Below are positions 3 to 4,550 of a DNA stretch of 64,000 nucleotides, one piece after another. The translations under genes and the position numbers were made by a program. Origin of the DNA: Beijerinckia sp. 28-YEA-48 (lineage in GTDB: Bacteria > Pseudomonadota > Alphaproteobacteria > Rhizobiales > Beijerinckiaceae); contig NZ_FNSI01000001.1 in the NCBI RefSeq assembly GCF_900104955.1, positions 592,001 to 656,000 on the forward strand, given 5' to 3'. Under the pieces are notes generated by a model. That model searched no databases, was not told the origin of the DNA, and was given only the letters and a program-made list of their open reading frames with translations. How positions within the stretch are numbered: the first letter of the stretch is position 1; each line of letters opens with the position of its first letter.

Positions 3-1343
3 ATATTTCAGTCGATGGGGGTGGCCGACGCCTTGGCGCCCCATGTTCACATTTCGAAAGGCATCAAATATTTCAACACCGAGGGGCAGTTGCTCCTGGA
101 GCGCAAGCCAGCGCATGAGATCGGCCTGCATGGTTGGGCCAACAATTTTCTTTTCCATCAGCCGGATCTGGAGCGCATTCTGCGCGCGGGCGTTGCTCGT
201 TTTCCTTCTGTTCGCGCCTATCTCAATCACGATGTCTTGCAGGTCGTCGACAGGGAAACCCATGTCGAGTTGCGGACGCAAGAGACGGTCAGCGGGACGA
301 CGTCCACTCACTTGGCCCGTTGGGTGGTCGGTTGCGACGGCGGCCGGTCGATGGTCCGGCAAGCGATTGGCCCTGACTTCGAGGATTTCGGCCTGCATCA
401 GCTCTGGCTGGTCGTCGATGTTCTGTTGTCGAGAGATATCAACTTACCCGATGCGACGGTGCAGTTCTGCGATCCGGCGCGACCGATTACCTGCGTGCGG
501 GGCACGGGGCGTCGGCGCCGATGGGAGATCATGGTCATGCCCGGTGACGATCCGCAGACGATCGATCGTTCGGAAAATGTGTGGCAACTGCTGTCGCGTT
601 GGGTCACGCCTCAGGATGGCGAGCTGGTGCGTCGGGCACTCTACACTTTTCATTCCCTGATCGCCGAGAAATGGCGCGGCAACCGCTTGTTGATTGCCGG
701 CGATAGCGCTCATCAGACGCCGCCGTTCCTGGGCCAGGGATTGTGCGCGGGCATTCGCGATGCAGCGAATCTCGGCTGGAAACTGGCGCGTGTGGTGAAT
801 GGCGCCTCCGAAGGCTTACTCGACAGCTATCAAAGCGAGCGCCACGCCCATGTCCGCGCCTACATTCAGGAGGCGGTGCGGCTCGGTTCCATCATTCAGA
901 CGACCGATCCGCAGGTTGCCGCTGCCCGTGACAAGGCGCTGCTCGAAACCGGACCAGAAGAAATGGTCAACCTCTCACCACCGCTCGGGCCAGGCCTGCA
1001 TCAGGGCAAAGGTGTTGCCGGCACAATCTTGGCGCAGCCACGGTTGAGCGATGGCAGACTGATCGACGATGTCGCTGGAAAAAATTTCGCGTTGGTCGGT
1101 GAGGCAGCGATCCCGCCGCATCTGTTCAAATCCGTTGAAGACATTTGCGCGGCTGTCGGCATGGTGTCTATCGCCGATGCTGCGCTCGCCCCATGGCTTG
1201 CGCAGGCCGGAGCGCGTTGGATCGTCCTGCGGCCGGATCGATATGTTTTTGGAACGGCCAACAGTCCTGACGAACTGGATGAGCTTGTCAGGTCGCTGCC
1301 GGCGGCCCTTGAAGCACGGACGTTGCAGCACGTCTTGAACTAA
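3..1343 (+). CDS. FAD-dependent aromatic-ring monooxygenase, MhpA-like (5' end outside window)
   Basis: The frame is already open at base 3, so the N-terminal GxGxxG FAD-binding segment lies upstream of the window. About 447 residues are visible. Counting from the ATG at 15, the DG motif of PF01494 hydroxylases (CDGGRSMVR) is near residue 107 and the second FAD motif (GDSAHQTPPFLGQG) near 229. The C-terminal part (residues about 330-440) matches the thioredoxin-like tail of MhpA/PheA-type enzymes. The family hydroxylates phenolic substrates using NAD(P)H and O2. It is the first visible gene of a four-gene plus-strand run with a PhyH dioxygenase, a P450 and a ferredoxin-like protein, so a role in oxidative degradation or tailoring is inferred; the substrate is unknown. 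Confidence 0.9.
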   Translation: MFQSMGVADALAPHVHISKGIKYFNTEGQLLLERKPAHEIGLHGWANNFLFHQPDLERILRAGVARFPSVRAYLNHDVLQVVDRETHVELRTQETVSGTTSTHLARWVVGCDGGRSMVRQAIGPDFEDFGLHQLWLVVDVLLSRDINLPDATVQFCDPARPITCVRGTGRRRRWEIMVMPGDDPQTIDRSENVWQLLSRWVTPQDGELVRRALYTFHSLIAEKWRGNRLLIAGDSAHQTPPFLGQGLCAGIRDAANLGWKLARVVNGASEGLLDSYQSERHAHVRAYIQEAVRLGSIIQTTDPQVAAARDKALLETGPEEMVNLSPPLGPGLHQGKGVAGTILAQPRLSDGRLIDDVAGKNFALVGEAAIPPHLFKSVEDICAAVGMVSIADAALAPWLAQAGARWIVLRPDRYVFGTANSPDELDELVRSLPAALEARTLQHVLN

Positions 1344-1372
1344 TGGTCCGCAGATCTTGGAGGGAGAAAGCG

Positions 1373-2209
1373 ATGAACCGTAAGCCACTCAACGACATTA
1401 GCGAAAGTGATATCAAGAAATTCAACGAAGACGGCGTTATCTGTCTTCGTGGCATGTTCGATCAGGATTGGATCGAACGCATGAATACGGCGATCAACCG
1501 GACGATGGATGCGAGCCATCCCGATGCCCGGCAGCGCGAAGTCACCAAAGCCCTGGGAGGGGACAAGGGACGTTTTCACATCAATTCTTTCGTCTGGCGC
1601 TGGGACGATGATTTCCGCGCCTTCGCGCTGGACTCGCCGTGTCCGCAGATCGCGGCTCGGCTGATGGGCCTCGACAAGGTGTCGCTGTTCTACGATCAGG
1701 TTTTCGTCAAGGAACCGGAGACGGCGGAGAAGACGGACTGGCACCACGATCTGCCGTTCTGGCCTCTGCGGGGCGCCAATATCCTATCGGTCTGGGTGGC
1801 GCTGACCTCGGTCAACAGCGAGAATAGCGCGCTTGAATATATTGCGGGCTCCCATAAATGGGGCAAATTCTATCGCGCCGCGATCCCCGACAACGATCCG
1901 CATTTCAAAAGCGACTTTGAGGAATGCCCGGATTTCAGCAAGGAACGAAGCGATGGCAAACACCGCTTTCTGAGCTGGGAAATGCAGGCCGGTGATTGCC
2001 TCGTACATCATCCGCTGACCGTGCATGGCGCCGAGGGCAATTTCTCGCCAAGTCGGCGACGGGCGGCGATCTCCGTGCGCTATATGGGCGGCGATGCCGT
2101 GTGGGATCCGCGCCCGGCAACGATGCGTATCCCTGGCGATCCGCAATATCCGGCAGGGCAATTTCCTGACATCCCGGACGTGTTTCCGCAGGCCTGGCAG
2201 GCTCGCTAG
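1373..2209 (+). CDS. PhyH (phytanoyl-CoA dioxygenase) family Fe(II)/2-oxoglutarate oxygenase
   Basis: The 278-residue product has the PhyH facial triad: H124 and D126 in WHHDLPF, and a distal His in HPLTVHGAEGN, followed by an Arg-rich strand (SRRRAAISVRY) that would bind 2-oxoglutarate. The ATG at 1373 is preferred to the in-frame start at 1343 because AGGGAG lies just upstream, and 1343 would overlap the previous stop. The family hydroxylates unactivated carbons, on CoA thioesters or on free small molecules. It sits 29 bases after the flavin monooxygenase and is followed by a hairpin and a P450, which suggests a shared oxidative pathway. The exact substrate cannot be inferred. Confidence 0.9.
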   Translation: MNRKPLNDISESDIKKFNEDGVICLRGMFDQDWIERMNTAINRTMDASHPDARQREVTKALGGDKGRFHINSFVWRWDDDFRAFALDSPCPQIAARLMGLDKVSLFYDQVFVKEPETAEKTDWHHDLPFWPLRGANILSVWVALTSVNSENSALEYIAGSHKWGKFYRAAIPDNDPHFKSDFEECPDFSKERSDGKHRFLSWEMQAGDCLVHHPLTVHGAEGNFSPSRRRAAISVRYMGGDAVWDPRPATMRIPGDPQYPAGQFPDIPDVFPQAWQAR

Positions 2210-3557: not shown

Positions 3558-4550
3558 ATGTCGAAGCGTGTGCGGATCGAACAGTTTGACCGGGAAATCG
3601 TCGTCGAGGATGGCGATACCATCCTGCAGGCGGCGCTCGATGCCGGGCTCGACTATCCGTTCATGTGCCAGCAAGGGCAGTGCGGGGCGTGCAAGGCGCA
3701 GCTGATCAGTGGCCAGGTCGATTTGGGCACCTATTATAATCCGCTCGTGCTGACCGAGGAGGAGCGCGTCGGCGGACAGATTCTCGCTTGCCAGGCCGAA
3801 CCGCAGACTGACTGCGTCATCTCCATCGGTGTTTTGGATGGCGAGGTCAGCCATGTGCTGCGAGATCTCGATTATGAGGTCCTATCCGTTTCGCCATCGA
3901 CCGATTTTATTGCGCTTCGTTTGCGCAATCGCTCCGCCGAGCCGTTCCATTTTAGCGCTGGTCAGTTCGCGCGACTGTCGTTCGATGGTTATCCGCCGGT
4001 GGAAGCGGGTATGGTGAACCGGCCAGATGACGAGGAGTTGCTGTTTCACTTGCCCCATGTTTCCGGCGATCTGTTTTGCCAGTTCGTTGCCGGTCTGGCT
4101 GAGGGCGCGATCATTGGCGTAGAGGGGCCGTTCGGCTCGGCCTATCTGCGCGAGGAGCATTTCGGGCCGATCCTGCTGGTGGGGCTCGGTGCCGATCGCG
4201 GCAAGTTGCTCTCCATCGCCGAAACAGCTTTGAAAAGCGGCATGGCGCAGCAGATTGTTTTCTTCGGGGACGCTCGTGCAGATGCGTCGACGGCTTCCAG
4301 AGTGTCGGATTTACAAAACACGTACCGTAATTTTCAGTGGCGCGCTGTTGCCATTGATCTGGCAGCCAGCGCTTCCTCGCAAACTGGGGAAATGCGGACG
4401 TCAATTGGAAATACCTTCGATGATTTCCAAGGCTTTCATGTTTATCTGGCCGGGTCGTCAAGCTTCTGCGCTTCGATGTGCGAAAGTTTGGTCGCGCAGG
4501 GGCTCGAGCCCGGCAATTGCTATTTCGACCCGATCGAAACACATGCCTGA
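3558..4550 (+). CDS. 2Fe-2S ferredoxin fused to degenerate ferredoxin-NADP reductase-like domain
   Basis: The 330-residue product starts with a plant-type ferredoxin domain with cluster ligands C37, C42, C45 and C78. A reductase-like domain follows (about 100-325) but lacks the usual signatures: the FAD-binding RxYS is replaced by EAGMVNRPDDEE, and the GGTG-type NAD loop reads GLGADRGK. The C-terminal segment (VYLAGSSSF...YFDP) still aligns with the family. The start at 3558 follows the P450 stop by 8 bases with TGAGGAACT upstream. Family members (benzoate or naphthalene dioxygenase reductases) move electrons from NADH to an oxygenase; here the ferredoxin half probably serves the P450, while flavin reduction is doubtful. 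Confidence 0.85.
   Translation: MSKRVRIEQFDREIVVEDGDTILQAALDAGLDYPFMCQQGQCGACKAQLISGQVDLGTYYNPLVLTEEERVGGQILACQAEPQTDCVISIGVLDGEVSHVLRDLDYEVLSVSPSTDFIALRLRNRSAEPFHFSAGQFARLSFDGYPPVEAGMVNRPDDEELLFHLPHVSGDLFCQFVAGLAEGAIIGVEGPFGSAYLREEHFGPILLVGLGADRGKLLSIAETALKSGMAQQIVFFGDARADASTASRVSDLQNTYRNFQWRAVAIDLAASASSQTGEMRTSIGNTFDDFQGFHVYLAGSSSFCASMCESLVAQGLEPGNCYFDPIETHA

Follow-up and report, generated by a model that had tools for sequence, protein, structure and literature searches.

A reductase-like protein without flavin and nicotinamide motifs, a candidate 2Fe-2S carrier for the adjacent cytochrome P450 in Beijerinckia

We have analysed a 64,000-nucleotide stretch of the Beijerinckia sp. 28-YEA-48 genome, referred to here as the window, in which a forward-strand gene with an ATG start (3558..4550) encodes a degenerate three-domain reductase-like protein of 330 residues composed of a 2Fe-2S (Fer2), an FAD-like and an NAD-like domain. 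Judged from its sequence, the protein is a degenerate relative of the BenC/GcoB family of oxygenase reductases and not a member of it. We consider it reasonably probable that the protein acts as a 2Fe-2S carrier for the adjacent cytochrome P450, that it is reduced in trans and that the former reductase module is kept as a cofactor-free fold; two members are known. The ancestor would have been an oxygenase reductase of the BenC/GcoB type, from which the FAD and NAD(P)H sites were then lost. The 2Fe-2S domain would pass single electrons to the adjacent P450 and, as hydride from NADH could no longer be used, would regain them from a different flavin reductase in the cell. The FNR-like half would have a role in folding or docking that requires no cofactor.

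Cofactor motifs retained and lost

The plant-type Fer2 domain (residues 1-92; 3558..3833, forward strand; Pfam Fer2, E 7e-16) contains Cys37, Cys42, Cys45 and Cys78 in the plant-type CX4CX2C...C pattern. Solely 2Fe-2S domain models of Pfam match the 3558-4550 protein. FAD_binding_6 and NAD_binding_1 gave no match at E<=0.1 in this protein or in L027, its homologue from genome G168, and both models matched the control reductase L028. A whole-genome profile search with PF00970 returned eight matches in the window's genome, none at the 3558-4550 gene, and five in G168, none at its reductase-like gene.

Alignment with 23 comparators (from 13 family-sample genomes and 5 phylum-sample genomes, together with L002-L005 and L028) located the losses in both domains of the reductase half. 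The FAD-binding-like domain (residues 100-204; 3855..4169, forward strand), for which Pfam reports no FAD_binding_6, is without RxYS (148-151) and GGxxS/T (171-174). R148, Y150 and S151 are R, Y and S in all 23 comparators and V, A/T and G in the two degenerate proteins, the site reading VEAG in the window protein and VETG in L027. Similarly, G171 is invariant in the comparators (23/23) and replaced by D/N, the Ser or Thr that 22 of 23 comparators have at residue 174 has become Cys in both degenerate proteins, and the FAD-phosphate region reads SGDLFC in the window protein and ADNASC in L027. The NAD-binding-like domain (residues 205-330; 4170..4547, forward strand) has lost three features, namely the loop GGTGxxP at 209-216, the proline of CGPP at 301 and the C-terminal Phe at 326. 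At loop position 210, 21 of 23 comparators have G and the degenerate pair has L/F; at 213, all 23 have G and the pair has D/E. Both glycines are present in 21/23 comparators, L002 and L004 having SGTG in place of GGTG, and the GGxG loop is absent from both cluster proteins. P216, present in 22 of 23, is K/R in the pair, and the GGSGLAP loop has become GLGADRG-type (GLGADRGK) in the window protein and GFGAECG-type in L027. Among comparators with a letter at the position, P301 is conserved in 21 of 22 and F326 in 20 of 20; the degenerate pair has S/L at the former, CGPP being replaced by AGSS (window protein) and GGAL (L027), and Ile/Ala (window/L027) at the latter. G211, a loop glycine, remains, as does G299. 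The roles given to most of these motifs are those usual in the family; the roles of RxYS and GGXGXXP are described in PMC3771892.

These results bear out the preliminary description, which had stated that all four 2Fe-2S cysteines are kept and that RxYS and a GGTG-type loop are missing from a protein of preserved length; alignment with the 23 comparators and Pfam agree, and the alignment rules out misread motifs. The losses go beyond the two motifs named there, to GGxxS/T, CGPP and the C-terminal Phe. When near-invariant columns of the reductase half are defined by agreement in at least 20 of the 23 comparators, 39 such columns are obtained; both degenerate proteins keep 18 of them and both lack 17, and the other 4 are lost in one protein. 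All 18 near-invariant positions of the ferredoxin half are kept in both. Twelve of the 17 doubly lost positions lie in or beside cofactor motifs (R148, Y150, S151, A153, G171, A209, G210, G213, A215, P216, P301 and F326) and five lie away from them (R166, D184, Y236, Y244 and P263). Retained reductase-half positions include F132, G135, Q136, G190-P191-G193, L197-R198, Y296 and G299, which look like structural positions of the fold.

Three cysteines of the emptied half, Cys174, Cys304 and Cys321, are common to the window protein and L027, with Cys174 at the FAD-phosphate Ser/Thr position. Cys is found in none of the 23 comparators at 174, in none at 304 (two being gapped there) and in three at 321. 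That these residues form a metal site is speculation. Together with the predicted retention of the fold, the shared cysteines are what favours altered flavin binding (FAD or FMN) or another cofactor in the cleft; we regard this as quite improbable, as RxYS, GGxxS/T and the C-terminal Phe have been lost together and the sharing of three cysteines out of four is about what a background identity of 47-62% would lead one to expect.

The gene cluster and its counterpart in a related genome

The reductase-like gene starts 8 bases past the stop codon of the gene for a cytochrome P450 (2251..3549, forward strand; Pfam p450), the presumed electron acceptor. Upstream in the same cluster and on the same strand are genes for a PhyH-family oxygenase (1343..2209) and an MhpA-like FAD monooxygenase (15..1343, with its start upstream of the window). 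The genes for the MhpA-like monooxygenase, PhyH, the P450 and the reductase-like protein form the same block of four in the same order, preceded by an IclR-type regulator, in L027, located on contig MKVW01000004.1 of the metagenome-assembled genome 'Rhizobiales bacterium 62-17' (G168), which belongs to the same genus-level group as the window's genome. The regulator heads the cluster in both genomes (identified by Pfam in the window's genome and by similarity in L027), and identities between the two loci are 90% for the P450, 93% for PhyH and 81% over 440 aligned residues for the MhpA-like protein. A divergent gene set common to both loci was read by eye as a TRAP transporter and includes a Glyoxalase-superfamily protein (Pfam), perhaps an extradiol dioxygenase. 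A Pfam scan confined to the cluster proteins other than those of the transporter revealed no second Fe-S domain. The P450 is the cluster enzyme that needs a one-electron donor. Since the 3558-4550 gene stands where the donor of the P450 would be expected, a carrier role for its product seems likely.

The P450 retains the heme-Cys motif and the I-helix Thr. In both this protein and the L027 P450 the I-helix reads AGGGTS, Gly replacing the acid of the acid-alcohol pair, a position occupied by Glu in three solved P450s aligned and by Gly in one (L055) of the four other P450s compared. The substitution could indicate a P450 that no longer needs electrons, leaving the reductase free to decay. We consider this highly improbable given the same Gly in L055 and the retained heme-Cys motif and Thr, and because it would leave the strong conservation of the ferredoxin half unexplained. 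Searches for further P450 relatives gave the own genome alone among 385 class-sampled genomes at E<=1e-90, and one further match (38%) among 397 order-sampled genomes at E<=1e-80, samples which are incomplete as neither gave a match in G168 despite its 90% identical P450. Plasmid relatives (14 records) are below 60% identity. A 35% identical Ruegeria P450 (L054) immediately follows a TRAP transporter, and the 3 kb displayed to each side of it contain no annotated ferredoxin.

L027 has the same motif losses as the window protein and is the sole close relative found. Close homologues occur in 2 of 51 genus genomes, own genome included, and a scan of genome contigs matched L027 and L028 alone. 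The next family matches at E<=1e-40, in 13 further genomes among 397 sampled, are the three-domain 2Fe-2S reductases L014-L026; these resemble the window protein at 33-37% identity but have RxYS and the loop intact. Phylum matches at the same threshold number five among 398 sampled genomes (36-42% identical). Plasmid matches comprise 20 records of 32-37% identity, the motif comparison covering the 23 comparators instead, and six matches in viral contigs all fall inside query residues 2-102, the Fer2 part. The surroundings were read for few of L014-L026. Several of the nearest intact relatives (L039, L040, L048 and L052) adjoin genes for copper-type or heavy-metal P-ATPases, those of L048 and L052 identified by eye, and cueR is present in L039 and in L040, the latter on the same contig as L018 with its copper-type ATPase nearby. 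The L052 reductase reading frame (G1103) diverges abruptly from the family at its C-terminal end, as if frameshifted, and the Nesterenkonia BenC-like reductase at L028:9953-11503 carries a C-terminal extension of ~180 residues that by eye resembles a GntR-type ligand-binding regulator domain.

The open frame and the losses shared by two genomes rule out sequencing error or a pseudogene. The degenerate proteins share 16 derived residues, which points to one loss before the split of the window protein and L027; most simply, the FAD and NAD(P)H sites would have been lost once, before the two known carriers separated. The two proteins (L001 and L027) are grouped with support 1.0 in the full-length and FNR trees. 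The Fer2-only tree pairs L003 with L027 at a support of 0.24, a placement probably caused by long branches.

Constraint and predicted fold of the emptied half

Nei-Gojobori comparison of the window's genome with that of L027 gave dN/dS values of 0.053 for the ferredoxin, 0.150 for the FAD-like and 0.310 for the NAD-like domain, ratios which are rough because dS approaches saturation (pS ~0.65-0.70; 251, 510 and 115 of 2000 bootstraps undefined). A second alignment with slightly different limits gave 0.149 and 0.343 for the FAD-like and NAD-like domains, respectively, and the neighbouring PhyH, P450 and MhpA-like genes gave 0.055, 0.068 and 0.108. pS exceeds pN in every domain, with z of 9.38 (ferredoxin), 7.51 (FAD-like) and 5.05 (NAD-like). 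Relative to the Fer2 domain, dN in the degenerate pair is 3.71 for the FAD-like and 5.73 for the NAD-like domain. The corresponding medians in 66 non-independent intact pairs are 1.05 (FAD) and 1.19 (NAD) with maxima of 2.91 and 3.54, the highest ratios coming from L022-L024, two close relatives (85% identical). When the intact pairs are restricted to the 29 with 55-75% identity, the ratios reach at most 1.95 and 1.79. Part of this contrast between domains stems from an unusually conserved ferredoxin half. Third-codon-position GC also differs within the gene, 0.63 in the emptied half (3834-4547) vs 0.77 in the ferredoxin half (3558-3833).

The same values can be read as those of a protein in which the ferredoxin half alone works and the remainder is a decaying tail without a role. 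Substitution at 3.7-5.7 times the dN of the ferredoxin half, 12 gapped columns in the emptied half of the degenerate-pair alignment and a tree distance between the degenerate proteins of 0.94 in the FNR half vs 0.16 in the Fer2 half would be expected of such a tail, and the rates also fit its slow decay. Nevertheless, dN/dS of 0.15 and 0.31 with pS exceeding pN at the z values given above, a frame that stays open as far as the usual stop in both genomes and the retention of 18 near-invariant positions by both proteins after a shared loss make this explanation distinctly unlikely. The emptied half thus appears to be under relaxed yet continuing constraint. If the sites were already lost in both lineages at their separation, as the shared residues suggest, this constraint would have acted on a cofactor-free module.

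An AlphaFold2 model of the full-length protein, built from an alignment of 3 sequences, is of poor quality, its mean pLDDT being 61.7 with blocks of about 26-57 in residues 1-100, and a model of residues 99-330 alone has a mean of 75.4. The NAD-like alpha/beta half is predicted at pLDDT of about 70-90, except for the last 10-15 residues. Superposition of the predicted models on GcoB (5ogx) gave Z 16.5 and rmsd 5.0 over 227 aligned residues, and Z 15.6 and rmsd 5.1 over 218. GcoB tops both lists of re-aligned chains, in a tie with several further FNR-family entries that score within 1 Z unit of it. The FNR two-domain fold seems, as modelled, to be kept.

The preliminary description had suggested a carrier with a scaffold domain that accepts electrons from another reductase and passes them to the P450. 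This stands in part: the motif loss and the idea of an electron carrier fit, and the ferredoxin half is constrained as strongly as the P450. The scaffold domain finds support solely in that an FNR fold is predicted to be retained, the outcome of the structure prediction proposed there for the second domain, and that dN/dS is below 1 in the emptied half.

Electron supply and relation to known systems

If the motifs mean what they do in relatives, the protein cannot use NADH and its reductase must act in trans. There is no PF00970 or PF14759 match inside the window; 8 and 2 are found elsewhere in the genome. The eight comprise L002-L005, which are BenC-like reductases with RxYS, and four further FAD_binding_6 proteins; the two are Reductase_C (PF14759) matches. 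The genome's own reductases include those at G000:C1:4239158, 3512016, 2449847, 4337316 and 3475569. Redox partners genomically separated from their P450s are mentioned in the abstract of PMC11889516.

Among solved structures, the best sequence relatives are GcoB (5ogx) and BenC, the benzoate dioxygenase reductase (1krh). GcoB, described in PMC6021390 as the reductase of the P450 GcoA, resembles the 3558-4550 protein in domain order, length and P450 partner, and is its best PDB sequence match and the top, though tied, entry of the fold lists; it differs as an FAD-binding protein that is reactive towards NADH and in which Phe330 is stacked on the flavin (PMC6021390), the matching motifs being absent from the 3558-4550 protein. 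The BenC profile NF040810 matches residues 12-324 with E 2e-35, but the score of 122.4 bits is below the cut-off of 430, and RxYS and GGTG are absent. A stand-alone 2Fe-2S ferredoxin differs in being a single domain of ~100 residues vs 330 residues here.

The nearest published case among the literature searched is ThnY, the regulator of tetralin degradation, compared here by its published description. According to PMC3771892 and PMC4814904, ThnY is BenC-like, is encoded in a catabolic operon, has lost the GGXGXXP loop, is not reduced by NAD(P)H but by a ferredoxin, and is needed for transcription. The main functional rival to the carrier reading is a role of this kind, in which the 3558-4550 protein would sense the redox state of the pathway and act on the IclR-type regulator of the cluster, present in both genomes, rather than feed the P450. 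Results in PMC3771892 indicate that regulation tolerates the loss of RxYS residues, Y139L working as wild type and R137L being partly active, so that flavin-motif loss alone is no argument against a regulator. Deletion of the whole NAD domain left ThnY non-functional, a result reported without data shown in the same paper; combined with the RxYS variants, this indicates that an emptied FNR half can matter and that a flavin-poor regulator is possible. We nevertheless judge the regulatory role unlikely. ThnY retains RxYS (R137/Y139) and FAD, acts with a LysR activator and accompanies an oxygenase with a separate reductase and ferredoxin (PMC3771892 and PMC4814904), whereas the 3558-4550 protein has lost the flavin motifs too and, were it a regulator, the P450 would be without a local donor, no other Fe-S domain being present among the cluster proteins scanned. 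In addition, ThnY with one cluster cysteine changed (C35S) still worked (PMC3771892), a result that would not lead one to expect a ferredoxin half as strongly conserved as the one seen here.

A further reading, put forward tentatively as doubtful though conceivable, is that of a dedicated P450 'pseudo-reductase' in which the emptied FNR module gained a new constrained job, for example gating or docking between a reductase in trans, the 2Fe-2S domain and either the P450 or the IclR regulator. The cleft, with its three shared cysteines, might then bind a new ligand. Among the literature matches listed, searched as titles and beginnings of abstracts with most subscription papers outside the search, no protein with both sites lost was described. 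If true, the carrier reading would take the 3558-4550 protein a step beyond ThnY, to an oxygenase reductase without flavin and nicotinamide motifs in which the ferredoxin head and the fold are retained. Such a protein would be mistaken for a P450 reductase if annotated from its Fer2 domain and its place among the genes, and it would provide a natural test system for the role of the FNR module in docking apart from catalysis.
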